From: Scatophagus argus
Lineage: Eukaryota > Chordata > Actinopteri > Scatophagidae
Reading direction: 5' to 3'
NCBI RefSeq assembly: GCF_020382885.2
Contig: NC_058493.1
Location: 22,069,499 to 22,133,498 of the forward strand
DNA: 64,000 nt
Of the stretch, positions 1 to 62,800 are shown piece after piece (position 1 is the stretch's first letter; every line of letters starts with the position of its first letter). The position numbers were made by a program, and so were the translations under genes. The notes below the pieces were generated by a model, which saw nothing but the letters and a program-made list of their open reading frames with translations, had not been told where the DNA came from and made no database searches.

Positions 1-832
1 AAAGAAATCGTCAGAAGAGTGCATGATGAATGAAAAGTTTTTTCTTCGCTTCCACTTCTTACTATTTAACATTAGGCAGCTATGGAGTGGAGAAAATATA
101 ATCTCATTCATTCAAAGGCTACGGGCGGCTACTGACAACTTTTAAGTCGACTTAAGTCGAAGTTAGGTCGACTGTTTTCTTGTATGTGTCTGAATGCACG
201 TGTTGACACTGTGAAGCAATCAATACATCCTATCTGCTCATTTTCTGGGACTGAGGATTTCCGGATGTGTCAGACTTGACGATACATTGTTATATGAAGA
301 GGAAGTAAAAGTAGATGCCACAAGTAGCCAGCTGTTTAAGATTAATTTTGACTTTTTGCTTCCATTAAGCCATTGGGGTTGTTCTGAATATGTTCTTGAG
401 GGCTTGAGAGAAGGCTTTACTCAACCTTTCCCTTCTTTCAAAAGCAGCTTAGAAATTTTCTTTGTTTTTTCAGTTATCCATTTTAAAAACAGAACAGCTT
501 GTCATTCTTGTGAGCTGTATTTGACCTTGTGGCTATGAATAGGTCTGATGTCTTCGAGTTTACTGCAATAATCAGTTTACTTTTCTTTTTACATTTATAA
601 GAACACTTCCTGTCTGGTCAATAAAAATGTAGGGTTTCTCACAGTGGACAAAAGACTTGGATTTCTCTGTCTATGGACCTAAATGCCCTGATATGACTGA
701 CCACCTGCTCATTCAGCCTCATGAATGGGACATATCAGATGTTAACTTCTGTTCACATCAAAGCATCTTGTTCATCTGCTACTGTTTATGTTTTTACATG
801 TGTCTCTATGGGGGTAGAAAAAAAATAATTAC

Positions 833-3800
833 CCCATGGCATATTCCTCCTCTTGCTTCTTCTTCCGGCAGCAGCAGCAATAGATGACAATGACAAGAAC
901 AATCAACGCGGCGACAACTCCGCCGATGATTCCCGCAGTGGAGCCAATGTTCATGGAGGCTACAGGAAGGAGGATAATTATAGGCAAGTTATAATGCAGT
1001 TTTATAAAGATGTATTTACTGGCAATACCAAAGGTGTTGCAAGAAGGTTTTGCTCACGTGGCATGACGGAGAGGGTGATGTTGCAGGTGGCAGAGCGGAT
1101 CTTGTTACTTGAGGTGCAGATGTAGTATCCTGATGTATCTTTGGTGATGTTGTACAGCGACAGGACGCCTCCCACTGGAAGACAGAGAGACAGTCACATA
1201 TACACAACACAGCAAGTCTACAATCCTACTGTTTAGAAAAAATCCAAAGGTGCTCAATCAATAATCAATGTTTTTTTTTTTAAATCATATTTAGTAATGG
1301 AAATATGTATCAGTAATATATTTCTTCAATAGCAAAAAGAAAATTGTTCAACAGGAAGTTCCCAGACATGTTAAATCCCTCACTCAAGTGACACACGAAC
1401 AGCCAATCATTTAACAGACGTGTTGTTCAGTTGTTCCATCAACAAAGGACAAAATAACAACTAGACAATGTGGAGTGAATAAATAAGGCAGAGATTAAAG
1501 GAGTAGTTTATTAAAAAAAACAAAACAAAACAAAAACGACAGGTCAGCTCAGCACTAAAATGTAGTGTGGAGATAGCTCACCCGCATGGCAGGTTTTGGT
1601 GCAGTTAGAGGAATACAGTGAAAGCCACTGCACCTAACAGAAAGACTCAAACTCGTCTTTTTCCCCCCATTTCTTTATCTTTTTAAAAGGACAGTATAAG
1701 TGGTACAACCAACTTCAAATTTTTTCATTAACATGCGATTTTTTAGGCTCTTTTCTGGCATTATCATCATCTTTACAGCCCCACAAGTTAGTAAATTAGT
1801 ATGAAAACTTGTCCCTCTTATTGGCTTCTTCATTTTATAATATATTTTTATTAACATACATTAAGACCTCATACTGTAATTGACTGAATCTCACTTTTTC
1901 TATCTTTCAGTTGCGAATGAGAGAGACATTTCTATACCAGGGCTTGGCTGGGAGGTGCCAGGGGGAGTTTGTTTCTCTATTTGTCTTAATATGTTCACGG
2001 AAAAAAATAGCTTCCTCTCTTTGAGAAAAAAAAGAAAGAAAAAAAGCGGATGAAACTATAGGCATTGATTTGCAGAAGTAAGTAAACCACTATGTGCTGA
2101 CAATCAACTTAGGTTCTTTTCCTGGAATGACAGTCCTGTCAGAAACTTTGTCAGTGATACATACCGTCAGTTGTTCTGGGATCTGCAACACGAGGAAGGT
2201 TCTTGACATCCCGACTTTCCCACTTATAAGTGGGTGGCGGCGAACCTTCCTCAGACAAACACGTCAGTTTGATGTCCTGGCCGTACTCTGCCTTTCCCTC
2301 GATCTTACAAAGTGGAGGAGATGGAGCAACTAGAACACAAAAACATGGAAATATGAATGAAGAATAAACCTGCACAACATTTTTTCTAGTAAGGATGTTA
2401 ATAGACTGTCTGTTGTGACATAATGATGCCGAGTGGCAACACAATAAAGCAGCACATTTGGCAAAGTGGTTAACAAAGGTTGTGTCTGTCTGATAAGCTA
2501 CTTCTTTATATCATCGTCATGGCTGCTTTTTTGCGCTTCATTGTAATAACAATAGCTCACATATTAGAACAGTTCAAAGCTAAATATGACACTAACCGAT
2601 GTTTATGATATCAAATACTTGGAGTGTAATATATATATATATATATGTATATATTGCTAAATTGAAACCAAGAAACAACATGCAGTATTCAACACTTAAC
2701 TGCCATTTTTAAACACTTAAAAGCAAAACTTGTCTTTGAATACAAATGAAAAGTTACCTAAAACCACCAAGCGCGCCGTGTCGGCCGGCTTGCCCTCATC
2801 GTCACCTGGGATCTGTACACGACACTCAAAGACTTTGTTGTCCACTAGTGCGATGGAGGACAGTTTCAGGTCGGCCTTTCCCTTGGCAATGTCTACATCC
2901 AGGGACACCCGATCTTCATACAGCGATTTGATGTCAAGTGTACCAGTAGAATAATAAGTGACGATCAGCGTCTGTGAGACAACAACAGCACCAGAGGAAC
3001 TTTAAAAGAGGACCAAAGAAAAGTTCTCTCGGCCTTCTTTTTGCTCTTCTTCGTAACGCAAAAATAATCAATCAGGATTAACCTGATTATGGCAAAAAGT
3101 TCAGAGAATCATGCACACACAATTAATAAGCACATAACCACATTGCAGTAGTCTGACCTCTTCAGGCTTTGTATTTTCAGCTTCAGCAGACCATGAGATG
3201 ATGACTAAGCTGGGGTTGGCTGACTTGGTTTGAAAGGTGCAGGGCAGTGTGATGTTGTCACCCCTGGCAAATTCATAGAGATCCTGAGGGATGTTCACAT
3301 TGAGAGCACCGACACCTGACAACACTGTCAGAGATTTAAAAACAGGGAATAGATTACCATGTGGCTGCAAATGCAAATCTTTTATAAAAACAGCAAACTG
3401 TGGTTAAGCTTTTAAAATTATTATGTCAATCTCACTGTATTACAAAATGTGCGTAAAATGTACATTTACTGGGAACGATTCAGCAGCTGTTCAGTACTTG
3501 ATGACCCCACCCTCCCAACCACATTCACACTCGGGAAGCACATTTGCATAGAAACTAGGACAAGTTGTCAAAAGCAGTTATTTTGTAGCAAAAACATAAA
3601 ACAAACAAACAAAAAGTTCAGTGCTGATCTGTTAAAATTTTCTGGAATTCCTAATCTTCTACGATAGTAAACTGAACATTTGTTTTTCGATCTTTTCTGT
3701 CAAACAAAGCAAGATATACTAAGACCCTGGTACCCCGACAACTTGTGATGGCTGGACCAAATGTTTTGGCAACTGATTAAGAAAACTAAATTAATTAATA

Positions 3801-26100: not shown

Positions 26101-27859
26101 TCTTTATGTCAAACTATTCTTTGAGCAATATTCTCAAAAAAAAAACAACAAACATATTAAAACAGGTTTACAGATAGTTTCAAACAGCTGTTAAAGAGAT
26201 TTTCTCTATCACTTTTCAATATGTGTTTGATATGCCCTTGTTGTTTGAGACCTCCACTGGCTCCTAAGCAGGCTTGTAGAGGTCAAATATGGATATTGTT
26301 TAAAAACTTTTTTTTCACGTCAGCATCTGTTCAACATGTTGATGTCACATGAGCGACTGCTGAAACATATTGTAAGCTCAAGTATCAGGTAGGATTCAGG
26401 GAAAGTGCCATCGCCCTCCTGGTTTCATGTTAAACGAACCTGTGGATAGACACACAGGGTGGCTTGAAAAACATTGAGGGGTCCGTGCCGAGCTCCTTGG
26501 CCACATCGACACATGTTTCCCTTGGCATGCATTGAGTCCGCTGCCACTCTTCATCTATGGCTAAATGGGAGACACACAGTGTTCACAGGCACATCAACAC
26601 ACATACAAAGACTTGCATGGAACATGTGTACATTGTTTATCCAACCTTTAAGTATCTCCAGACTGTAAGATTCTGCAGCGTAGCGTGTCGAGCGGTGTGA
26701 GCCGGCTGAAGGTGGAGAGGAGAGGGCCTCTGGCTGCTGCAGTCTCAGACGGCACTTCCATAACTTCCAGTCAGGAAAGTCTGTGAGCTTCAGCAGCTCA
26801 TCCAGGCTGGAGGCTGACCGCACATTCCTCTCCCACTGCTTCTTTACCTGCAGGAGTCATAAAACTGCTTTCAGTAAGCAGACTTGTCTGTATAGTGGGG
26901 CAGGGAGGCCAAATGGACTGGTCAGCCATAGCCTAAAGCGAAGCCAATAGCGAATGGGATGTGAGATGTGATCATTTTAGTGATATAGCCTACCAACTGT
27001 GAGTAAGTTCGAGAGAGGCAGTGTAGGCTGCTTGCAGCTGGCGTGTTGCAGTCTTTATCCTCCCTTTATTGCCATCCTCCTTTTATTGGCCGACAGTGGA
27101 GAGAGCCCTATTTTAATTCTTTTAGACCTTAGTGCAGCATTTGACACTGCAGACCACAACATTTTAATTAACCGACTGTAGTCCCGGGTGGGCATCCTGG
27201 GCACCGCACTCCATTGGCTGTGCTCTTACTTTTTGGACAAAACTTTTGCAGTCACCATAGGTGAGTACATGTCATCCTCAGCCCCACATCATGTGGTGTG
27301 CTGCAGGGCTCAAGTTTAGGTCCGATTATATTCTCTATTTATGTGCTCCTTCTTGGCCAAATTATTCAGAAACACAATGCCTCCTTTCACTGCTATGCAG
27401 ACGACTCACAGATATACCTTCCCTTGAGACCCACTGAGCCAAGAAGCCTAGCTGCCGCCACTGACTGTCTCAGTGATGTAAACTGTTGGATGGCCCGAAA
27501 CTTTCTCCAACTCAACAGTTCAAAAACAGAAATCATGCTGTTTAGCCTCCCACATCCCCAGACACCAATCAGCCTTGGTCTTCTATTTGACTGAAACCCC
27601 AGCTTTGACCCCCAAGTCAAAAAAATTGTCTTATCTTGCTTCATCCAACTGCATATGATCTCAATACTAAAACCACTCCTCCCACGGTATGACCTCCAAA
27701 GTCGAGGTTAAAAACTAAAGGTGACCAGGTTTGTACTGTCAGAGTCCCTCGGCTTTGGATCGAGGAGATAAGGCTTACAAGGTCAGTAACTTCTTTTAAG
27801 TCACTTCTCAAAACACACTTTTACAGACTGGCTTTTACATGATGTTGTCTTTTTACTGT

Positions 27860-45742: not shown

Positions 45743-48700
45743 TTACAGCCATAAAAGGCCTTGCATCTGTTGAATGTATTCCTCAGTTTTATATTTCTCT
45801 GCACTCAGCTCAGAAGATTCATTGTCCTGTTGCTGACGCTGCATGATGTCCTTGGCGATTCGCATGCTGGCAGCCTGTCCACCAGCCAGGTTTACTGCAT
45901 GAGGTCCAACCTGTGTGTGTGTGTGTGTGTGTGTGTAGGGAGGCGGGGGGACAGGTAGGGGACACAGATTCTGTAAGATAATAGTACAGGTTGTTGCTGA
46001 GACTTTTTTTTTTCCACACCAAAACACACACACACACACACACATCAAGCCTGACCTGAAGAGCAGTGTACTGTCCCATCAGGTAGAGCGGACACTCTTC
46101 TGTCCACTTTAAGCTCTCTGATATGCAGGGCCAACCGTCTATCACCTTCACAGAGGGGCAAGTCGGTCACATTTTATGAATCAATCAGTATCTCCTTGAT
46201 CAGGTTACATCGAGGTTCACCTGTCCAGACTTTTATACATAAGTAAATAGGCTAAAATCATTTGTACGTCCAACTCACCTGAATGGGGAATTCTTTCATC
46301 ACCTCAGAAAGCAGTGGGTCCTGTTGGACATCAAGTTTGCAGCCGGTGGCGAGCCAGATCATATCTCCAGTCCAACGGTCCCCAGCGCTGAGGGAGAGAC
46401 TCCAGACCTGGTTCCTGTAGCACCAGCTGGCTTCACTCACCTGGACAGTAGAATAAGATAAAACTCGTGTAAAAACTTTTGCAGTACCTCATGTCACGTT
46501 ACGTCACCTGTCACACGATTATCAGACTTAACCTCATCTCGTTCACTGGACATGCACCTCACAGTATGTCCTCACATCCACCTGTCCGTTCAAGATGAAC
46601 GGTTGGAGGTTGATGTAGGCCTCCGGGGTGACGGCCCCTCCTTTCCTCGCCTGGCGAATCATAGCCAGCCGTTTGTGGAGGCTCCGCTCATTATAGAACT
46701 GGCGCAGGTAAGCTTGGCCGTCCATCTTGATCCCGTGCTCCACGTGGGAGTAACGACCCACCAGGCTCTCCACGTCGCCCACATCAAACTGTTTTAACTG
46801 GGGAAATCAGAATGTAGACTGACACATGTGTTGGAGGCAGACGGGTATATCAAACGGTAATTCTTGATGATTGGTCTACATGCAGTTTCACACTGTCACT
46901 AGACCTGCAGGTGCTTCCTCATGACCCATGTCACATGGCTGGCACCTTGCTGAAGGGCAATTGAGACGACATGAGCGCTGGTCAGACCTCCACCAACTAC
47001 CATTACTCTCTGCCCTGCCTCACACACTACACACAATTCTAGACACACATAGGCAAACAGTACGCGTAAAGGAAAGTGCTGCAGCCAGGATGGGGGATCG
47101 AATAGCCATTGAAGTCTGCAGAATCAAAGTATTATTGATTATTCTGAAAATCCTGGACAAAAACATAGTGTTTCCTGCAAAGTCCTTCTGTATTAGTGTG
47201 TTGTTACACTAACCTTGAGTGGGAAAAGTCTCCTTCTGACGGTCTGTGTTGCAAAGGTTTGGCCAAAGAGCTGACAAGCTGTGCATGAGCTGCACTGTGT
47301 GTTGCAAACGCTCCTCTGGGTAGCTCTCTGCGATGCTTTTCACCCATGCAGGGATGTTTGCCATGTGGGCTCGGGTTGGACCTGTTGCCACGATGACCCG
47401 GCGGGCTTTTAGGTTGACGCCTTCCTGAAGTTTGACTTTAAAGTATTTCACTCTCTTCCTTGACCCATTTCCCTTCCTTTCAGTGGCTGTCATGGCTTCA
47501 CCCTCTGCTTCCCGCTCGTTTATGCAGTCATTTTCTTCTTCCGTCTCTTCCTCGTGTTCAGTCACAGGGACGATGGTTTCCACTGTTCCCTTTACCAGCA
47601 CTTCGTCCAAGTTGTATCTCTCCACCTGTATGTTCAGATCCACCAATCAGCAACTCAGGACATGTAGCAGTGGTCAGATTTAAGTGCTCATGCTGTTTAA
47701 AGGACAATGTCAGCATTATTCCATTTTCTCCAAAACCAACAATAGAAGACAGATTACTTATAAAGTGTTGTTGGTAATTCTGGTAATTCTGACATAAACC
47801 TGTAATTAGATGATTCTGTTTATTCTTTCTGTAATTTTAAATGTTTCACTTCAGTGTTAATTAAGAAGTAACTCCAAACAAGAGTGAAGTGAAACTCACA
47901 CCACAACAAAGTTTATTTAGCCACTTTGGCGAACTTCTTTTTCACAGAAATACTGCGCCGCTACAGAGAGCAGTAACTTAAACAAATCGAGATGTATATT
48001 CACAAAAAAGTCAAACAGACACAGTGTTTTCAAAGATATTCACTGCTTTTAAGTGTGTGTGCGTGTAAATTAACGTGCTAACAGAACATTAAACATAACA
48101 CACACCTGATCTTTAAAGAAATCCACACTTAGTTTGGTTCCAGGCAGACTGAAGGGTAAACTCTTCTTTAGTGTTGAGGTGACGTTTAGACGCTTCCTTT
48201 CCTTTTTGCCGAGCCGCATGTCATTGAAAAACGCATTTTCATCCAAAATATAAACCTGGTCTGGAAGACTGTGAAGCTCTGCTGTACGATTATGCTTTAA
48301 AACAAACTCCTGCAGTGCTTTCTGTCAAAGAGAGCATACAACACACGTGTGTTCACTCACAGTCATGCTGTAAAATCACATCCCTCCTTTCTGCTTTTAA
48401 TTCGTTTGTGTTTATACCTTATTGAGAGGATCTGTGTGCACCAGAGTGTGTGAGCGCAGATGAGGGATTTTCAGAGCTGTGAACTGACTCTGCCACAGAG
48501 TCGTCCACTCCCCGTAGGAATCTACTACTCGGAGACTCAGCGGGGAGCCAATGACTCTTTCTGATATCACTGATGTTGCTAGTTGGTCCTCCAGTGTCAC
48601 TCCTGCACACACTAATCACAAACCACAAATGAACTGAACTGTGAGCCCACACAGGCAGCAAGTTATGATTACATTATGACACAGGTAAGCTACTAAGAAG

Positions 48701-49529
48701 GACAAAGGATCACTCATTTATTTAGATCACTCATTCATTTACTTGGTGTTTTAGTTTGTAAGTAAGCTGAGGCAGCCTGATTCCAGACTTCTAAATCGCC
48801 ACCTAAAAGTCTCAATTTACTATTATGACTTTGAAATGAGGATTTGAGTCCAAATATAATGATGAAGACTCATTATCTGTGTCTCAAGTCATATTTTTGA
48901 GACTGAATCATAATTTAGATGATCATTTATGAGTCATCAATATTAAACACTAACACTGATTTGCAAATAGGGCTGCAACTAACAATATTTATTTATTAGT
49001 GCTAATCTACCTGTTATTTTCTCAATGAATTGCTCAACAGTGTAGCCAGTAAAAAGTCTCAAAAAACTGAAAAATTCACATCTAAACTGCTCGTCCTCAC
49101 GACCAACCATACAAACCCCCCAAATAATCAGTTCACCACCATGTAAGACAAAGAGGAGCAGCAAATTCTCACAATTTGAAAACCCACCTAGTGAATTTTT
49201 GACATTTTTATCTTAAAAAAATGCTTAAACCATCAATGAAAATAGTTTCCAGTTAATTTTGTGCCTGTCAACCAATCAATAAATTTCAGCATAAGAATGA
49301 AGTGTGCCGTACCAGCATTTGCCCTCCTCTTCTTCTTCTTCGCCTTGCCATTGCAGCTTTTGCTGCTGGATGTTCGCAGGACCTGCTGAGGCCTCGCAGG
49401 GTCCAAGCAGGAGGGGGACAGGGGTGAGTCATGTCCAGGGTCTGAGTTTGGATCAGGGTTGGACAGCAAGCTAGCCAGGGTCAAGGCATGAGGGCCACCC
49501 CCTATTATTAACACATCGAGTATCACCAT
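45743..49529 (-). CDS. FAD/NAD(P)H-dependent monooxygenase-like protein (uncharacterised)
   Basis: Coding exons in transcript order: 49529-49313, 48602-48418, 48321-48106, 47625-47214, 47026-46905, 46797-46558, 46440-46279, 46145-46056 and 45910-45743. All phases agree and the product is 603 residues. The N-terminus VLIIGGGPHALTLASLL is a dinucleotide-binding Rossmann loop (FAD). RRVIVATGPT is the ATG-type linker strand of class B flavin monooxygenases. VMVVGGGLTSAHV is a second Rossmann loop (NADPH). The C-terminus VGPHAVNLAGGQAAS closes the FAD domain. The layout resembles L-ornithine/L-lysine N-hydroxylases and, more distantly, OSGIN/FMO proteins. There is no signal peptide or membrane helix, so it is probably cytosolic. 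A charged insert (EEETEEENDC, later ERKGNGSRKR) splits the middle of exon 4. The substrate is unknown. The start codon directly follows an acceptor, so a non-coding first exon is likely upstream. Confidence 0.82.
45911..46044. repeat. (GT)n and (CA)n microsatellites in the last flavoenzyme intron
   Basis: GT runs at 45912-45936 and CA at 46023-46044 are mirror-image repeats 86 bases apart, filling most of a 145-base intron. The first, read on minus, abuts the acceptor of the last exon (cacacag then GTT). Confidence 0.9.
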
Positions 49530-51240
49530 CTGAAACACACACACACACAGACAACACAGTAAAGGTGTTGCATGTCATACAGTTAGAAACAAGTGTGGGA
49601 CAATGAGTAAACATATTTCAACAGTCCATAAAACATAGATCATCACAGACGTTCTAGTTTTAACATTTTCTGTAAAAGTTTTTGAACTCTGAGTATCTCT
49701 GGAGAAGCCATTAAAAACAACGCAAACATTGTGCAGAATCTCGTGTTCAGTAGGTCGCAGTACCTTGTTTGGCTTGGATTTGTCACCTCACGCCAGCTTC
49801 TGACATGATGGTGGAAACGTGGTCAGCAGCAGCTCCGCCACTCTGCGGTGTGTGCTGGTGGACCTCAAATTTTGCGACAGCGGCGTGTGCCTCTCGTGTA
49901 ACTCAATCCACCTCAGCGTCTACAGATTTAGCTGGACTGACTGACTGAAGGCTCGATGGGGAAAGCTGGAAATAGCTTTAGAGTGTTTGTGTGTGTGTGT
50001 GTGTGTGTTTGTATAAATTTAGTAACACAACCCATTGCAGTTTAAAAAACAGTACTGCACCATTGGATTTGTTGGAAGTCCACTGTAGCATCCTTTCATT
50101 ATTTTCCTCTCCTTTATCTGTCACACTAATTCATTTAATTAAAAGTCTTGAGGTTTAAGTATTTTCATTGAGAGACAGCTGGCTGAGACAGCATTATTAT
50201 TATGTATTATTACAACAATCAAAAAATACAAAGCGGTCATCCAGACCAGTCAGCTAAAGAACTAGTTTGACATTTTGGAAAAGACACTTATTAACTCTTG
50301 GTTTTGTTGTCAAGATGAGAAGACCTATCATACTCTCACATCAGTCCGGTAGCCACAGCCAGGAAATGGTTAGCATAGCATAAAGACTGGAGTCTCTGCT
50401 GGTTGTCTGGGAAACTCACTGTGACATGACTCTAGGACTTCCTGTTAGAAGTCCAGCTCCAAACACCCCGGTTTATTACCTTTGGACAGAGCCGGGTTTC
50501 CCCTGTCCCATGTTAGTCTTTATGCTAAGCTAACCGGCTGCTGGCTGTAGCTTCTCTGTAGCTAGTAGTAAGTCAAACCATTGCAGGGGGAAAAGGCGAT
50601 GTAGTCACAGGTGCACTGTGGAAAGTTTTTGACCTCATGCTGATATGTTTATTCTCTGGTGCTCGGTTATTTATTGTCACAGAGGAAGTCATTTTTCTTG
50701 CAGCAGTTCCCATGTCTAATGGGACATACTGTAAACTGGACTGTTATCACTTCCTCTTTTCTCTGCTCAGGATTTTGTGTCTTTATGCTAATATGAATTT
50801 TGCTTGAATGCAGAACTTGTGATGAATATGAAAGAACAAGTAAAAGTGCTGTTGCAGTGTTGGTATTGCTAAAGATTAAGGAAGTGAGCTCCAAGTGAAA
50901 GAAGAAAACAGTATTTCGTTTGAGATGCTTGTGTGTGTGTGACTTTCATTGCTCTGCCCTGTGCAGCAATTGTTTACATGTAAGAAAAACTAAATGAAGA
51001 GTAAAATAAAATGCTTTACTTAACGGATTCAAACCTCTTCTCACTTTTCTTTTTGCCACAAGCTTTGTGTTCGAACAACATCATATTGTACAAGGGAACA
51101 CCCCTTGTTATTCAAGCTTTTTTAGTCTTTATGACTTCCCCATCAGTCCCTCTGACATCAGTTCCCCATCCATGACTGTTTCAGTGATCCTTTATTTGTA
51201 CTTCCCCTTCTGTTTGTGTAAAGCAGAAGCACAAAGCCAC
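49530..51240. other. Intergenic region between divergent flavoenzyme and IL-1-like genes
   Basis: About 1.7 kb shared 5' region of two divergent genes. It contains a GT microsatellite (49986-50009) and a fold-back repeat (50255-50585). A possible donor on minus near 49761 (CAAG then GTACTG) might end a flavoenzyme 5' UTR exon. No coding exon was seen. Confidence 0.55.
50255..50585. repeat. Fold-back teleost repeat family B, most complete copy
   Basis: Arms at about 50348-50387 (gtagccacagccagg ... ttagcatagcataaagac) and 50515-50553 (gtctttatgctaagctaacc ... ctggctgtagctt) are imperfect reverse complements, enclosing about 130 bases that include cctttggacagagccggg. The palindromic structure and the multiple copies in this window indicate a non-autonomous DNA element. 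Confidence 0.65.
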
Positions 51241-51246
51241 TGAGAG

Positions 51247-51254
51247 CTTTAAAA
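51247..51254 (+). promoter_or_regulatory. Candidate TATA-like element of the IL-1-family gene
   Basis: A tttaaaag motif about 70 bases upstream of the ATG at 51321, on the coding strand, would place transcription start near 51280. The motif is weak. Confidence 0.3.
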
Positions 51255-51320
51255 GGGTGCCACTATCACTGGTGTCGTCTTCGGTCTTCGGCACTAACAG
51301 CAGCGAACACGGCCAGCGCC

Positions 51321-54300
51321 ATGGATTTGAAGGTGGGTGACAAAATCTGAACGTGACAACACCCCTTTTCAAAGCTAAGACTGAGAGTGTTTTCCTGACG
51401 TTGAGTGAAAGTTTGTTTATTTATTGATTCCTAAACATCAGGAATCTGTGGTTAATGGAGGCGTGCTGATCGGCCATAAGGTCCATGAAGGAAAGCACCA
51501 GTATGAAGTGGAAAATGTGGTGAAGATCAAAAACGGGAGCAGACAAAAAACATTCTCCAGGTAAAAGTCAGACTAACGCAGGATCATGTAATGTGGGGTT
51601 TTTTTTTTGTTATGTTATGGTTGAACATGTGGCCACTCAGCACTACCTCAGAGCTTCACCCAGTTCTTTATTTAGTGCTTGTGGGAAACGTATCCAGTCT
51701 CTCACAAAACATTTGTTGCGTCATACTATCACAAGAGAAAAAAAAACAAACAAAAAAAACAAGAATGAGGCTCAGAGCATCTCTTTCCTGTGAAGGTAAA
51801 TTTAACTGCAAAAACAAAGAAATTAACTAATAAATACATAAACAAGCGACATACTCTACAGGATTCTTTAAGAACAACAGCAACTAAATTAATTATTAAC
51901 ATTCATTCATTCACATTAACTGATGACCTGATGTGAAAGAGTGAGAAATTTATGACTTCTTCAGAAAACAGAAATACAAAAGTGTCCTCTTTTTGTTTTA
52001 CAGTGGCTGGCATCCATGTCCACCACTACAGAAGTCTCTGTCTCTAAGTTTATCTTTGGCAGTAAACAAAGAGAATCAATATAGACCCATTTACTCACAA
52101 TAAGAAGCTGATAGACGAAAAAGTTTTTACGGCCTTTAACGACTTACTTGCTTTATAAGAGACCATCATGTCTGCAGGTTTAAGGATTTTAAAGTTGTGT
52201 TAAATGGGCTTTGAACCACATGCTCTGCAGCTCTCTTCATTAAGGTTATGTTTCGTCTCTGGACTGTTAAGAGTCAGAAAAGACAGAAACAAACAAACCA
52301 ACTGTGAGATGCTAACAGATTTTCCTGTGTCTGCTATGTGGTTTCCTTCATTTGAGATGCTGTGCCACCTATTGGTTGCTTTCATTAGAAAATAATATAT
52401 ATAATATATATAACAGGCACAGTAAAATGTTCAGCAGCAGGAGCTTTGTTGTTTTTCAAACAAAACATGTCGTACATAAATCCAGAGTGGACACAGAAAA
52501 ATCCTTAGGAAATACACCAACCAAATTGTGACATGCTGTTTTCCCCTATGAATGACTTAATGCATGAATATTGTTGTTAGGTATACTTAAAAAATCCTGA
52601 ACAAAGTATGTGTCTTACATGTTTTTCACTTTTCCCTAAAAAGAGGAGACAAACTGAGGCAGATAAACAGCATAGACTTGCAGGATGTCACACCTGAGGA
52701 GCTGGCGCAAATATTAGCAGAGGGCAATCCGAAGCTGGTGAGTTCACGGACTTCTCTGTGTCTCTGGGACATACTGCTGCATGAAACTATTCCCCGTTAT
52801 TTCACTCCATAAGTCATTTTCCCCCAAACTAAATGAATGTGCAAGTGCTGTTGAATCTTTTCTGCATCTGTTTTTTTTTTTGTTGTTTTTTTTTTTGTAA
52901 GTGTTAGTAATTGGAATGAATGAAAATAAGACTTTAACTGTTCCTGTTTAAATTACACAAAAATACAGTAAACATTATTTTACGTTAAATTATATTGTAT
53001 TAATCTGGAACCGCCCCCTGCTCATCCCTCTGGTCCTCAGACAGTGCACAAAGTCAGCAAGATGAAGGGACATGTTGGACAGCCCTCCCCAGCAGAGGAC
53101 ACTTTACATCCTGTCTCAATGGAGTCTGCGGTGCTCAGTTTCAGCATGGAGATGAGGAGGGAGGAGGACCTGGAGAAGGACGAAGTCGGGCAGGAGGGGG
53201 AAGGAAGTGAGGATGTTTGCAAAGATGAAGATGAGGAGAATGGGGAGGGGAGGGACATGCTCATTGTTTCCATGATGAAAACCAGCATCTCTGTGGTGAG
53301 AGGGAGGGGCTGCGACGATGGGACAGGATGCGTCCTCAGTGATGTTGTCGTGGTGGCAGAATCCAGCACGGTGATGTTTGGTGAGTAAGTTGGCTTTTAA
53401 TATCCCGTCTTCTCTTTTCTATATAAAAATAATAAATCTAATAGTCACTGTCATGTTGTGCACCACACATGACATCTCCCCAGTCAAGACTGTTGTTTTT
53501 GTCCCCATAAAGACCATATAAATTATGAACTACATCCCCTCTGTTTGATCCTTTAAGTTCCAAGAGGATGTGGAAGTTTCAGAGTGCAAAAGCCATCAAA
53601 TGTTGTGGTTGAACATGTGGCCACTCAGCAGTACCTCAGAGGTCTCTGCTCTCAAGGGATCATCTATGCTTCACCCAATCCAGGTTTGTCATTCAGAGCA
53701 GCACACAGCAACATGGCACATACTAACCGCGTGGATATTTTAAAGGAGGGTAATCACAGATAAGTTTTTATCTTTAGATATACTCTTCAATCAGTATCTT
53801 TTATGTGTAATTTTCTTTTGATTCTTTTGTGTTCAGAGAAGATCACCATCTACTCCTACAAGTCAAACACCGTGGATGAGAATTTCAAAGGCATCCCGGT
53901 GGTCCTGAACTTCACTGAGTCCAACTGTTTCCTCAGGTGCTGCAAGAAAGGGGAAAAGGTGTTCCTACAAGTGCAGGTAAAAAAATATTACTATTATAAA
54001 TTTCAGTTTCAGTCGCACTGAAGCAGAACTTTGATGTCCCGTACTTTTGAACTTTTTGGAGCATCTGTGGAAAGCAGATTTAATTCATTGGCATTCAACA
54101 AACTTCTATATGAAAATTCTCCCCTTATTGTATATTTTTTTTATAATTTCAATGTCTGATTTGTTTTGAGGACAGCCCTCAAAACATTTCATCTTCTACA
54201 CAAAGTGTAGGATTGGGAACTTGGATTTAGGTTTTATGGACACTGGTGCTAAATGCTAACATCAGGATGCTAACATGCTGATGTTCAGCAGCTGCAATGC

Positions 54301-55457
54301 TTAGCTCAAGTTCTGTTTACTGGTTTATGGTTTTAGGGTGTTAATGTGCTAACATTTGCTGATTAGCATGAAACACAAAGCAGAGCTGAGGTGGATATTA
54401 GCTATGCAGGTATGAAAAAAATAATGGACAAATTTGGTTTCTGGCGTGATGATGTCTCTAGAGGCGATGTTTAACCCTGTAAAGCCCAAACCATTAAATA
54501 ACTGACAAAAAATTCTAATTCTTTGAACTTTTCTTTGAAAAGTCTTTATTGGTCCCTCTGAACAAACAAACAAAAAAATTTTCAAATATCATATCTGTGC
54601 ACTGCATGTATCTGAACATCAGGTTTTTCATGGAAAAAATTATTACACTACTCATGTGGAGGGCTGAAAAACTCATGTATCAAATATGATACGTTTGGCG
54701 TTATAGGGTTAAGCGTACTTATACACAGAATTTCATGGAACTCCATGAGCCTTACTGTACTGCTGATGTATGTTACAGGGATCTTTTTCATCGTCAGTTT
54801 GTCTAAAGGATTTACATTATTTATTATCAATATTATTATTTACATTTACCATCAACTGCAGCAGTTACACGTGTTTCTTACAAATATGATGGGAATATTT
54901 CATCTTCAATGAAGCTATGAAGATCATCTCACTCTTGTGTTTTTATATCAATGCAGTATTTAAAACGTATTTATTGGAGTTACATCCTCACAGAAAATAT
55001 TTTATATCAATTTCTCTTAAAGAAGAAAAATCATTCTTTCTCATTTGTTACTTGACTGTGTTGGACCAGGTTTGACTCAACCTGTTTAATTTAAAACCAA
55101 CCAGAGGGGAAAGTCAGTATCATAATGTCATAATAATCTATTGTGACACTTGCAAGTAGAGGAATCAACTGATTGCTGATGTTGAACAGCCACCTGTGCT
55201 CTCTGTGGTGTGTGATGTCCACACGTTTGTTGTTGCAGACATGTGAAAAGCAGAGGCTGAAGCAGATCTCCAAGTGTGATGAGAGCACACTGTCCTTCGT
55301 CTTCTACATGAAGGCCGACCGGACGAAACAGCGGACGTTTGAGTCCGCGCTGCACGGCGGCTGGTTCATCCAAATCGTCGACTCAGACTTAGTAGAAATG
55401 GGAACCATAGATGAGGGGACCAAGGAGCAATCGTTCCTCTTTGTCATACAGAAGTGA
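51321..55457 (+). CDS. Interleukin-1-family cytokine with PDZ-like N-terminal region
   Basis: Coding exons 51321-51332, 51442-51560, 52644-52737, 53041-53380, 53558-53683, 53837-53976 and 55239-55457. All phases agree, the product is 349 residues and there is no signal peptide. Residues about 5-75 contain FSRGDKLRQINSIDLQDVTP followed by EELAQIL and LTVHKV, the GD-x-L-x-x-[IV]-N-[GS] pattern and following helix of a PDZ domain. A 100-residue linker with an acidic run (DEDEENGEG) follows. The C-terminal part is an IL-1 beta-trefoil: VEHVATQQYLRG, FRVQKPS, KITIYSYKS, PVVLNFTESNCFLRC, then FESALHGGWFIQI near the end, a version of the IL-1 family signature with Gly where Pro is usual. Seven exons with a tiny first exon recall IL1B and the teleost-specific IL-1 family member described in fish (sometimes il1fma/nIL-1F), which it may be. 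It is likely a leaderless cytokine precursor. AATAAA lies at 55819. Confidence 0.85.
51607..51668 (+). pseudogene. Partial duplicate of the IL-1-like exon 5 inside intron 2
   Basis: The sequence atggttgaacatgtggccac, continuing ctcagcactacctcagag then gcttcaccca, is nearly identical to part of coding exon 5 (53600-53680), with the middle ~26 bases of that exon deleted. The encoded VEHVATQ-YLR is preserved. The copy has no acceptor of its own and runs into stops, so it is a fragment rather than an alternative exon, on present evidence. Confidence 0.75.
54225..54430. repeat. Teleost repeat family A copy in IL-1-like intron 6
   Basis: The phrases gctaaatgctaacatcagga, tgctaacatgctgatgttca, gtgctaacatttgctgatta and gcatgaaacacaaagcagag are in the order of the common fish interspersed repeat also found at 24297-24390 and 57415-57890. 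Confidence 0.65.
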
Positions 55458-56888
55458 TAGGAGTCAGAAGTATTTTCAGTTCTAAGTCGTCAGTTTAACA
55501 TTGAAAGTTCTTTTGTAAGTCCTAGTTTTAGTTGGGACTTGAAGCTGATTTTGTTTGAGCCACCTGGTCAAATTACAGAAACAACTGTCTGTCAAATTCT
55601 GCTGTTGCAGAAGTGCGTAGATATGTATCATACAGCTATATACAAACATATTTTTGTTTGAGTGTGAGTACGGTCCAGACTTAAATGGAATTTTTGGTAA
55701 TCAGTCTTGTTGTTCAAAGTGACCTTTTCAAACAGATTTTTTTTCTTTTTTTACCAGCGTGAACATTTTGTGCTCAAGTTATAACTTCCATTATGAAAAT
55801 ACTTTCAAAATAATTTAAAATAAAAAAAAGATGTGATTCTAACTTTATTTATTTAACACTTATTGATAGATTTTGTAAGGAAAATTGTATATGGTATAAA
55901 CTATAAACATGAGTCCAATGTCTTGCACAAATTACTTAATGACTGGTTCGTTGATAATGTTTAATACCGACAATATGTGGTAATTCTTTTCATTATTTAA
56001 TCTTCTTATGCACCTATCTACCAGATATGCACTGACAACATTAAACAACATTTCTGATATTTTAAAACCAGTAAAAGTATTAAGTAGCATTAAAAAAAAT
56101 GTCTGAGCATCAAAGCCTTTTACAGTATTAAATATTAAAATGTCATACAGACAAATACAGTTCTTTGGATGAACTCAACTGAATTTGAACTGTATGACTG
56201 GAGGTGATCCTGGAAAAACACTGTACCTCTTGAGAGAGCCTAAATGAAGTTTGAAACTTTAACAATTAAATAACATTTTAAGGTGTTATTAAAATAGTCT
56301 GTATGTATGTAAAAACGGGTTATGATTGTACTCTACAGTGTTCTATGATTTCTGTATGTGCTTATACTAATTTTGTACTGAGTGCATGAACCATATATAA
56401 GTAGTACAAGTACTGAAAATTTACTACATATAAGTGCACCTGACTGTGGTGTCTTGTAGGAAAAAAATAATGTTTGAAGTTCATTTAATGTAGATTAACA
56501 TTTGTAAATTAAATTAATTAAGTAAATTTCATTTAACTATACACAGACTACATAATTTTTACAAAAAAAGTATACTTAAATACACATACATACAAGTTAA
56601 TGATGCATCAAAGTAACACTCAGGTTAACTATATGTCAAATTGTAATACTTATGTATTGATAGTACATTAAGTATCAAAATAGCACACTTTTTGTACATT
56701 CACAAGGAAGTATACTTAGTATACTACAATTAGGTACAATTAAATATATTTTTACTATTTGTACTGACTATACAACTGTATGGACAAAAATCTTTGACAA
56801 CACTTTCACAAATATACACATTTAGCAGTTGTCAATGTTTGATGCATGCAGCACTGGCGAAGGCACTGCTTCAGTGACAGCAGTGGAC
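55458..56888. other. Convergent 3' region of the IL-1-like gene and ace2
   Basis: 1.4 kb between two stop codons facing each other. It contains the IL-1-like polyadenylation signal (AATAAA, 55819-55824). The rest is very AT-rich with many short tatacttaa / aagtatac phrases between about 56390 and 56760, which look like decayed repeat sequence. No coding exon. Confidence 0.6.
55819..55824 (+). promoter_or_regulatory. Polyadenylation signal of the IL-1-family gene
   Basis: AATAAA lies 362 bases after the stop codon on the coding strand. The 3' UTR before it contains ATTTA-like AT-rich stretches typical of cytokine transcripts. Confidence 0.6.
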
Positions 56889-59800
56889 TCAAAATCCAGT
56901 TTGTTCACCGTCACTGTCCTCAAAGGCTTTGTTAGTTTGTCCGTTACGGTCTTCATCGTAGGGATTCTCTGCACCTGCTCCTGCAGATTTCCTGCAAAAA
57001 TATAAGAAAATGTCAGAAATGTTTGACAGTCACGCCGGTAATTAGTCAAACATGGCAGAAATAAAAGCAAACTCACTTTTTGCGCTCTTTGACGCCAACG
57101 ATGACGAGGTAGATGCCTGCTAACACCACAATTCCCATGACCACCCCATATACCACCAACCACACCACCACGGGCTGCTTCACGGGAGGGGCCAGAGTTG
57201 GTGGGATCCCCACGAACTCCAGCGTCTCGTCATCCAGTTGGAAGGCATCGTTGATTCGGCCTCGGCATAACCTGGGATCGGTATCAAAACGGGCTTATTA
57301 TTGCTCACTTCTACAGAAACGTCACACAGAGTTGATTCTATCAATCTTCAAAAATCCGGATGTCAGGAATCATATAAAGACTAGACTAAGTCTGACACTG
57401 TGGCACTGTGCCCTGAGCTAAATGCTAATATCAGCATGCTAACATGCTTTGAATGGTAATGTAATTTGTTTTGCAACTATCTGGTCATAAACTCATGTAC
57501 TGGATAAGGTGAAAGCAAACTGGAAATGCCCTGATGATGGTACAGGACGAAAAGCTGAGGGATAAACAAAATTACAGTAATTCACCCCAAGGAGGACATA
57601 AGCATCTGCACCAAAACAGTCGTCCTATCGGTGTTAGATTCACTGTCTGGTGCTCATGTGGGCCTGTATAAAATTTTGTGTCAAGTCCATCCTTTAGATG
57701 TTGAGATATTTTACTGAATAAGTGAAATCTTTCAACCTGTTGATGGCATTACAGGAAAAATCAGAGGATCATCAGTGTCAGTAGAGTTAGTATTAGTGAT
57801 GTCTGAAGAAAATTTCTTGGCAATCCATCCAGGAGTTGTTGAGATATTTCAGTCAGACAGATCTACATTGCCGACCATAGAGCTGGCTTGACTAAAAATC
57901 AGCTGTGTAATTAGACTTCCAAAGGCTGTTTTGGAAGTCTGAGAAACATTCAAAGTAATGCAAGTATACTGCACTCAATGTGATTAAAATACACTTTGAA
58001 TGAAATTAGTGCCTCACCGTATGGCAGCCTCTACATCCTCCTTTGGAATATTTATGGAAGGAGTTGTTGGGTTAGTGACCACAAAGCTAAAGGAGATCCT
58101 CTCAGTCACCGGAGACGTGAGGACGTCCTTTGATCTGCGGGTGCAAACCGAGAAACGCTCTCAAACAAACGGAACAAAAGGAAAACAAAGCATAAAGCAT
58201 CTTCATATTTTTGGCATGGCAGTTGATACTGACGTGAAGAGGGGCACGGTCCCATTATTTTGGTAGTAGTACTGCCTCAAAGCGTACGCAATGTTGGCCT
58301 TGAAGAGGTACAGCTCATTGTCGTTCCAAGTGTACTGAAACAAATTTTTATTAAAATAATGGACTTTTCATATCAATCACTAAAAAGGTGCAAAATCAGC
58401 CAGATAATTTAACTCCACTATAATTAATAACACTGACAGTGATTAATAATACTCACAGCATTATCACCCATAGCAGCCTTCAAACTAATCCTCACTGTAA
58501 CGGCATACATTGAATCTGAAAATAAATGAATAAATAAATAAAACAAATCATGGCTTTGCTGAACACACTTCTCATTATTGCTCTGTGCCGCGGCCACAAA
58601 CAGGAGCCGCCGCAGCAGCAGGAGTTTCCAGCAATCACACACATTCTCTTCAGGAACCGCACTTTCTAATAAATGAATTTGCTTTGATCACGCTGAAACA
58701 AAAATACCAGTGACCTAAGTCTGTGTTTTTTCTACTTCCCTAAAATTATCTGAAGGGATTTTTTTTTTTTTACTCTGTTGCAGCAAATATTTCCCAAGAA
58801 ATAACATCAAGGTTTAGTCACAGTTCTTACATAATGGTAGAAGACTTGTTTGTCCACTCGTACAGTTTATATGCCTCCGGAGCTGCTTTTCAGATCTATC
58901 CAAATGTTTAATTTACTTTGCTAGGAGTATACTGAACACTACATAAACACAATATGGCAGCTTAAATACACTCAATGCATATGAATTTGGTGGATAAGAA
59001 AGCAAATAAGCATTTTACCCAACATTAATAGTGAAAAGTGATTGTTACTTCAGTGGTAGTTTTTTTGTACTCACATGGATCTATTTTTGTCTTCCAGCCT
59101 ACAAGCCTGCTGTGTTTCTGGTTCTCTGTCTTCAGCCAGTCATGAAGTTTTTGGAAATACTCCAGCAGGGGTCTGGCATCCATCCTAACATCACCAGATA
59201 TTGTATGCAAAGCCTGGGTCCAGGACTTTGACCTTCCCAGTTCTAACATGTTCCTGCCAGAAAACATTGATGGTGATGATGGCGATAGATTACTGCTGCA
59301 CTTGTACACGTGTACCTCAACAGTGTGATATAATGTGCTACAGCAACGCAGAAATGAAAAACTTCAAAAACTTCAAAACAGGAAGTTGTCCATACCTCAG
59401 TTTAGTTCCTGCTGCTGTAGAACCAGTAATGTCACATGATGACAAGGGACCTGTATGACCAGCGGCATCGCAGAGGGCCTTTTGGAACTGAAACTGGTAG
59501 ATGGTTCTTGTGAAGTACCTGAATTCACAAACAGGGACATGAACACACACACACACACAATGATGATACAACCGTTTTCAGCCTGGACCCTGTGGTTCCA
59601 TCTTAATCTTTATATTTTATTCCTTTAGCACTCGGCTAAAGAATCTTCTTCACATTGCCTTCCATATGCAGGCAAAATACACAACCAAAAGAAAATCTCA
59701 AATCCATCCAAAGAATCAGTGAGTCAAAAGATTAAATAAAAATGAAGTTCGGATTTTGTTATGAAGTTTTGATGCTTGAATGTTTCAGCATTTCTTATTC

Positions 59801-62800
59801 ACTTTCGGCCTCTGCTTTGGTTGCTTTCAAACTGGGAATGACAGTGCAAGTATTCATGCCAATTGGGTTATCATCACATGGCAGCTGAAGTTTTACTATA
59901 AGACGCTTTGTAGTGAAGAGGCCACACGTTGGGCCGAACTGTACAGCATCAAAGAAAACAAGGAAGAAAAATAAATATATGTGAGCAGAAAACAGAAGAA
60001 GAATAAAAAGAAGTGCAGCTTTACAGTGGGAGGCTACCTGATGAAAGAATAGTCTCCAGACACATGGAACAGAGCAGGAGGGTCACAGTAGGTCTCATCT
60101 CTTGGCACTGGCTCCACCACCCCAACCAGCTCCCTCCTGTTATGACAACAGAGAGTCAGCACTGATGCAGGCTGATGCTGTAACCGCAGACCTGCAGTGA
60201 AGCAGCCGCTGAGCACACACAACATGAAAAGCCACAACACCTGTCTGCAGTATATCCAGCTTTAACGCCATGACCCCCAGCTGCTGACACTGATATGAGA
60301 TGTGAGCAGATGTTTTTAAATACATGCTACCAGTGAATTTTCACAAGTTATTCACAGATGCTTCACATCTGTCTCTGCTTACTTCATCTCCCACCAGCGC
60401 TTCATCCATTCATCTTTGGTGATGTTCCCTGCAAACGCCTGCCATCTCCATTCCTCCAGCATGTAGGTGAACGGCAGTGTGGCCACAATGGTGAGCGCCT
60501 GTTTCAGGAGGAAGTTGATCTCTGTTTCTGCAAAGGCATAAGAAAATGGTTGAGGATATGCAGTAGTCCAAAGATATCAGCATAAGCTTATCTGATGATA
60601 AGCTTATCTGATGTTTAGCTTTGAACTACAGATTTTTTACTGTGGAAAATAATCCCAGTTGTGTTTAGCACTTTATGACACATGCGTCAGACACTTAAAG
60701 TACATGACAGTTTGCATAACATTTAGCAGAGGGCCCAAGGTCATGTCATGCTTGATTCGTTGAAGTAAACAACTGAACATGGGTGTGACATGGTCCATCC
60801 AGGTGACCAACCAATGATACCTTGGTGTCAAGGTATCACTGATACCCAACCAATGCTGATACCAGTTTTCTCCAGATTTTCATTGGTTTAGGCCAGGAAA
60901 AATAATTACACTAAGCAGCTAAATGTCTGTCTACTGTCTGGTACTGGGTGGGTAGGGTACAATGGAACTTCGTTAGAACTTTCCTGTTTCCCTGCAAGTG
61001 GAAAAGATGTGGAATTTTCAAGGCCAGAAAGACAAAACAAAGAAAGAGCAGATTTGTGATCTGGCTAACGGGATACCCGAGGCAACAGGTGTAAATGAGG
61101 CCATAGTCATTTAATCCTTTGTTACAATTAATCTTTGATTGTAGCAGCTCGAATGTTTTGGAGAGCTGCTGGAGAACTGCCCATCAGAAGTACCATTATC
61201 ATAAATGAAGTCAGCAGGCAGGAGACCCAGGCTCTGCAGGTGTTTGGGAGTCGCAGCAGAGAGGGACATGATTTCTCCGACAGCCTCGTGGAAACCCTCG
61301 TTGGCTCCGTCCCTCAGGAGGTAGGACAGGTTACGGTAAGCCATCTGGTACTGGTTGTGACCCATCTCGTGGTGCACTGTGAGAAAGTCATCCATGTTGA
61401 CCTCTGTGCACATTTTGATCCTAAAGACATTGCAGGAGAAGAGTCGTTGTCAGCAGTTATAATGTGAGACAGACATTGGCATAATGCTGTATCAGACATA
61501 AAAGATCAGTAATAAAGTTTGCGTAATAACATATTTCTGATGAGTCAGAGGTAACAGTGAGGCCCCAGTTCAATAAAATTCAATTCAATTCAATAAAGTC
61601 CTTGACTAAGGATACAAGTCAAGTAACATGGTTTCAGGGAGAATATATTTTCTTTATTTTAACCCAAACCTGAGGAGCCATACAGCCTGACACCTGGACA
61701 GAGATACATTTTGCATGTGAACAAACTTTAAGACACTGAAAACAACCATATGGATTAATATTTGACTTTGGTTATCTTTATCAGCATGACTCAGAGACTA
61801 ATCAATATCATTGTTCCAGGAAGGTCAGATTTATAGCTTTCATGTACTCCTTTTTATATATATTACTCTTATCAAAGCTGTGTAAATATATATATATATA
61901 TCATCTCACGTGGAAATAAGGACAAGAGCTGCATAAAGTCAACTGATATAAATGTAAGCTTTTAAATGATGGCGATAAGGTATCTGCTCTTAATCAGTCA
62001 ATACACAGGTTTTATTTCAGATTCAGCAACTTCAGTTTTAAGAGATTTTGCTGCATCTTTCTGCATGTGTGAATATGTGCATGTCTCTGGATTTGTCCTA
62101 CCTGAAGTCCTCTCTGTTTCCCATGTCCCAGGCTGTGGGGTGACAGACCACTTTGCGTCCATCGTCAGGCTTCACCAGCATGGAGTTGCTCCAGAAGTTT
62201 GGGAACATCTCGTAAAGATCTACAGACATGAAGAATTTCTCTGCTTCCTTGAAAAGCTGAATCTCGCTCCAGCCCTGAAATTTAAGTTGACATTTGGTAG
62301 ACCCGTTTCAGTTTCCAGCACTACATTGTCAAACTTATTCTTAATATTTCATGTTTTGTGTGTGTAAAGTACAAACAGAGTAACAGAATCAGTTAAACTG
62401 CAGTGTACCTTCTCCACCATAGTTTTGCTGACATCAATATCTGTTTTTTCAGGGTAGGGGACTGACAGAGAGTACAGGTTGGTCCAGAATCTTCCCCACA
62501 TGTCACCTGAACAATCAAAATAAAAAGGTAATTAGCTTTCACTCATAACACTTTAATATTTGAACAGGGTTTCCTCAGCTCCCGTTTTATTGAGTCCTTT
62601 GTTTGCTTATAACATAAGCAGCTGTAGTGTGGATGTGTGGGGTTATTGTTTTTTATAGAATAAAGCATTCAGCGTTAAATTATTCTTTGAAAATACACGA
62701 ATAAAGTTTGATTGACTGACTAGAAGTAGACACTGAGATCAAGGTGAGTTTCAAGGTGATCTTGCAAATTTACATCCTACATTGAATGTTTTTATCCCAT

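Follow-up and report, generated by a model that had tools for sequence, protein, structure and literature searches.

A seven-exon nIL-1F gene of Scatophagus argus joins a PDZ-like N-terminal module to an IL-1 trefoil

Introduction

Cytokines rarely carry a folded, PDZ-like propiece. The gene described here appears to have one, which raises the question of whether the two parts truly belong to a single protein and, if so, what such a propiece could do. The gene also offers a way to ask whether a propiece can determine the place at which an antagonist is stored and released.

Results and discussion

Gene model

The gene lies in a 64,000-nucleotide stretch, hereafter the window (C1:22069499-22133498), of a 570.7-Mb genome. 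Seven coding exons occupy 51321-55457 of the plus strand, and GT donors and AG acceptors flank all six introns. The spliced frame of 1,050 bases encodes 349 amino acids and a stop. Seven exons in consistent phases had been proposed in the initial annotation, and its coordinates are correct, with canonical splice ends and one frame running through.

Exon 1 (51321-51332) encodes MDLK and is supported by the frame, the GT donor and a favourable sequence around the ATG (GCCATGG). Exon 2 (51442-51560) supplies the opening part of the PDZ-like module (residues 5-44), and exon 3 (52644-52737) its second part (GDKLRQINSIDLQDVTPEELAQIL). A single open frame, exon 4 (53041-53380), contributes the end of the module (TVHKV), the acidic linker and the stretch before the trefoil. 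The IL-1 trefoil is divided among exon 5 (53558-53683, first part), exon 6 (53837-53976, middle, placed by a Pfam match and by intron phases) and exon 7 (55239-55457, the end and the stop), all on the plus strand.

Along the protein, MDLK is followed by the PDZ-like module (about residues 5-83). After a spacer come the acidic stretch, a segment that precedes the trefoil and closes with VPRG, and then the trefoil itself. The segment GDKLRQINSID...EELAQIL, residues 45-68, lies entirely within exon 3, and the acidic linker (residues 110-147) has a net charge of -13. A C-terminal IL-1-like trefoil containing FESALHGGWFI (residues 311-321, in exon 7) is present as first described, but it does not end with that motif: the C-terminus is 28 residues further on, at ...FLFVIQK.

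As a separate observation, intron 2 holds at 51612-51653 (+) a 42-nt partial copy of exon 5 (53600-53641), with 95% identity. After the 42 nt there is a 27-nt gap and then ten further matching bases. The local alignment scores 81.2, and the highest score among 200 shuffles was 32.8. This copy is probably a recent internal duplication, and probably inert.

Membership of the IL-1 family

The Pfam IL1 profile (PF00340) matches residues 231-322 of the 349-residue protein at 36 bits (E 6.3e-9, cut-off 25). When the trefoil part was compared with the sequences of solved structures, 37 distinct matches were obtained at E<=1, of which 36 are IL-1 family members by name, the best being IL-36 alpha (E 6.6e-6). 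We take the 37th, EBI-005, to be an IL-1beta/IL-1Ra chimera. A genome search with the same profile found two other loci, L003 and L004, which we read as IL-1beta-like genes, and missed the window gene itself.

The last three introns of the window gene have phases 1, 1 and 0, the same three as in L004. For L003 the last two of the three trefoil phases were checked, and both agree. Local identity amounts to 34% over 74 residues with L003 (E 3.6e-9) and 27% over 83 residues with L004 (E 6e-7), both E-values being those of a two-sequence comparison. Beside the latter gene, at about 7672-8001 of L004, a frame looks by eye like CKAP2L, in which case it would agree with the synteny that PMC7144542 gives for IL-1beta.

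The family-signature Pro is replaced by Gly, which the initial annotation took as a possible mark of an antagonistic member. The same position holds Cys in L003 (FESVKCCGWFIST) and Asn in L004 (LVSVPFNNWYIST). Because both IL-1beta-like genes also lack the Pro, the Gly is not a distinguishing mark here, and that suggestion is not supported. The full PROSITE IL-1 signature is matched by neither the window gene nor L004; as the latter is IL-1beta-like, the strict pattern does not discriminate in this setting. A 2025 survey describes the motif FES-PG-WF, Pro included, as universally conserved across seven IL-1 subgroups (PMC12108812). All three genes deviate from the surveyed motif.

Identity as nIL-1F

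We identify the window gene as nIL-1F (nIL-1Fm), known in fishes as the "novel IL-1 family member". The lumpfish nIL-1F (MN689249, 352 aa), published in 2020, is described as having an IL-1 domain, a PDZ domain reported as an InterPro match, and predicted caspase-1 and thrombin sites; the synteny of nIL-1F is given as identical in all species compared (PMC7144542). The PDZ domain is named in the text and a figure legend of that paper, where it is reported without its function being probed. The core proposal of the initial annotation, an IL-1-family cytokine and a PDZ-like N-terminus in one gene, is borne out, with both domains found here and in the published lumpfish ortholog, and the same architecture is thereby present in another teleost (PMC7144542). 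The combination of PDZ and IL-1 domains is already known in fish, and the window gene adds another species. The earlier statement that no mammalian IL-1 member is known to bear a PDZ domain may stand. What remains of interest is the putative role of the PDZ-like propiece and a proposed switch at VPR↓G, discussed below.

The published lumpfish primers, some of which overlap, allow a direct comparison. Eight of the ten fit the spliced gene better, by 1 to 6 bases, than they fit the rest of the window, defined as everything outside 51101-55600 on the plus strand and all of the minus strand. The other two, F355 and F422, find no better match in the spliced gene than in that remainder. F357 matches exon 4 in 24 of 27 bases. 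R358 spans the splice between exons 4 and 5, with 22 of 26 bases matching the spliced sequence and 17 the unspliced one. R360 hardly discriminates (19 of 23 spliced, 18 unspliced).

It is extremely improbable that exons 1-3 form a separate upstream gene and that exons 4-7 encode the cytokine alone. Such an arrangement would agree with the trout recombinant protein, which consists of the last 169 residues and does not need exons 1-3 (PMC4929537). Against it, all phases fit across the seven exons, and the Pfam PDZ match, which covers residues 14-77, extends into exon 4 by two residues. Furthermore, a lumpfish transcript of 1,322 bp, assembled from two that overlap and verified by Sanger sequencing, is reported to encode both domains within its 352 residues (PMC7144542).

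As for activity, the literature on trout and grass carp describes nIL-1Fm as lacking a signal peptide. The last 169 residues of trout nIL-1F did not trigger inflammatory genes and inhibited those induced by IL-1beta, probably through receptor competition, as shown in grass carp; caspase-1 and thrombin sites are reported for the trout protein as well (PMC4929537). Most mammalian IL-1 members are said there to have no orthologue in fish, and nIL-1Fm to function like IL-1Ra, yet not to be its 1:1 orthologue (PMC4929537).

The protein could instead work chiefly within the cell, or be a weak agonist, and not a secreted receptor antagonist. In mammals, Asp145 of IL-1beta and Lys145 of IL-1Ra separate the two activities. 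In our reading of the alignment the equivalent residue is Ser here, and the two IL-1beta-like genes have Asn and Thr, which is uninformative and leaves room for this alternative. The inhibition by trout nIL-1F and the receptor competition in grass carp (PMC4929537) speak against it, and we regard it as unlikely.

The PDZ-like N-terminal module

The Pfam PDZ profile scores the N-terminal 95 residues at 18.5 bits (E 0.0027) and the whole protein at 15.2 bits (E 0.028). The N-terminal part has two Pfam matches at E<=10, both to PDZ families, with PDZ on top. The profile comparison suggested in the initial annotation has PDZ as its best match and stays under the curated cut-off of 23.2 bits.

A second profile, independent of Pfam, drew on 18 PDZ stretches from this genome. 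On this profile the N-terminal 95 residues reach 19.8 bits, whereas the best of 20,000 shuffles reached 13.4, which gives the PDZ-like region claimed at the outset a specific similarity beyond composition. We also searched 471 frames of the window with at least 50 residues, low-complexity frames left out. The exon 3 frame, at 19.9 bits, is the sole window frame among the 12 best rows, which go down to 9.1 bits. On L003 and L004 (8.5 and 8.0 kb) the genome-built profile gave at best 3.1 bits in 404 frames.

The sequences of solved structures gave 35 matches to the N-terminal part at E<=10. Judged by their names, 32 of these are PDZ proteins, and the remaining three are nectin-4. The best match is MPP7 (E 2.7e-4). 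A direct search of the genome for close relatives of the module found none, and comparison with PDZ domains pointed to no particular subfamily.

The PDZ assignment is thus weak but specific, falling under the Pfam cut-off and standing above all 20,000 shuffles. A likeness arising by chance or convergence, with a propiece as unstructured as that of mammalian IL-1, would sit well with the missed cut-off and with MPP7 being the only solved-structure match below E 0.001. It sits poorly with the shuffles, every one of which scored lower on the independent profile, with the PDZ identity of both Pfam matches at E<=10, and with the InterPro PDZ match reported for the lumpfish ortholog (PMC7144542). 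We hold this explanation to be quite unlikely.

In the profile alignment the match comes from residues 30-74. Over its first third the domain aligns poorly, with LIGH or VLIG in place of the carboxylate-binding GLGF loop. At the alphaB1 position, where many PDZ domains have a His, this one has Pro61, so that the class I His is missing, as it also is from PDZ domains of other classes. Since neither the GLGF loop nor the alphaB1 His is preserved, ligand binding by the module is not assured.

It is quite possible, then, that the module has inherited a PDZ fold but no longer binds peptides, and that its only role is to maintain the precursor in a folded or inactive state. The altered loop, the replaced His and the restriction of the profile match to residues 30-74 all point this way. 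On the other side, some PDZ domains with unusual loops, for example in the p55/MPP group, still bind; one locus of this genome, L038, appears by eye to belong to that group. The presence of the domain in lumpfish also suggests retention. Our reading of the sequence is that the module is a diverged PDZ domain by descent, with uncertain ligand binding.

Candidate cleavage site and proposed mechanism

A candidate thrombin-type cut, VPR↓G (residues 189-192, 53380-53568 on the plus strand), is located at the border of exons 4 and 5, where intron 4 (53381-53557) splits the Val codon. The motif resembles the thrombin consensus LVPR↓GS. It is identified from the sequence and from the match of R358 across the splice, that primer reading VMLVPRGG in one frame at this position. 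A cut here would leave 158 residues, a length similar to that of mature mammalian IL-1 ligands. The thrombin assignment is our own and putative.

Release had originally been placed in the acidic linker. A caspase cut at one of its Asp residues (118-147) is possible, but VPR↓G, which follows the linker, is the more precise and the best candidate.

We consider it reasonably probable that a diverged PDZ-like precursor is held in the cell and, once cut before the trefoil, frees a receptor-occupying antagonist. Without a signal peptide, as in the published orthologs, the precursor would stay inside the cell. The N-terminal module would hold or position it, by docking or simply by folding. A protease would then cleave immediately ahead of the trefoil, with the thrombin-type VPR↓G (189-192) as the likeliest place, or alternatively a caspase would cleave at a linker Asp. 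The freed cytokine of about 158 residues would occupy the IL-1 receptor without strong signalling.

A more specific version is rather unlikely, namely that the PDZ domain is a working, non-canonical dock for an IL-1 antagonist, that a thrombin-type cut at VPR↓G releases it, and that clotting would in this way locally damp IL-1 in fish.

Genomic neighbourhood

The window also contains a gastrin-releasing peptide receptor gene (GRPR; 8915 to about 16585, plus strand, first exon piece matched) and a pirin gene (about 32.2-39.2 kb, minus strand). An ACE-type peptidase gene with a collectrin domain follows at about 56.8-63.7 kb on the minus strand, with matched pieces at 57082-61404. One of its pieces has ACE, then ACE2, as best solved-structure matches, and we take the gene for ACE2. 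It stands tail to tail with nIL-1F, and GRPR, pirin, nIL-1F and ACE2 form one block at 8915-63714. The block resembles human Xp22, where GRPR, pirin and ACE2 sit together and no IL-1 ligand is known.

Several other features were seen in the window. A gene on the minus strand at 832-3313 encodes an immunoglobulin-type membrane protein, with an I-set match under the cut-off at 1062-1175 and a transmembrane-like stretch at 832-960. By eye, a frame at 26656-26856 (-) resembles VEGF-D, with no Pfam match, and one at 27265-27591 (+) resembles a fragment of a LINE reverse transcriptase (YADDSQIYL). Finally, a gene at 45746-49535 (-) begins MVILDVLIIGGGPHALTLASLL, a dinucleotide-binding-like start by eye. 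Its pieces 46546-46785, 47311-47643 and 49299-49526 have no Pfam match at E<=0.01, piece 46276-46446 has none at E<=0.1, and 46546-46785 has no solved-structure match at E<=0.01.

Comparison with known systems

Interleukin-16 also has a cytokine precursor with PDZ domains. There, the cytokine itself is a PDZ fold and has no IL-1 trefoil, in contrast to the window gene. Among PDZ proteins, the likeness to MPP7, and to the presumably syntrophin-like L010 and TAX1BP3-like L011 (named by eye), lies in the GDKLRQINSIDLQDVTPEELAQIL region; the window gene differs from PDZ domains of this type in its GLGF loop and alphaB1 position.

With L003 and L004 the window gene has in common the trefoil, the intron phases and a signature region without Pro, and it differs from them in its PDZ match. 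It is like the nIL-1F/nIL-1Fm of trout and grass carp in being a novel IL-1 member without a signal peptide and with a predomain, as described in PMC4929537. Lastly, no difference beyond species was seen from lumpfish nIL-1F, the sequences being compared through the primers, which match exons 4-7. The two proteins, of 349 and 352 residues, both combine an IL-1 and a PDZ domain.
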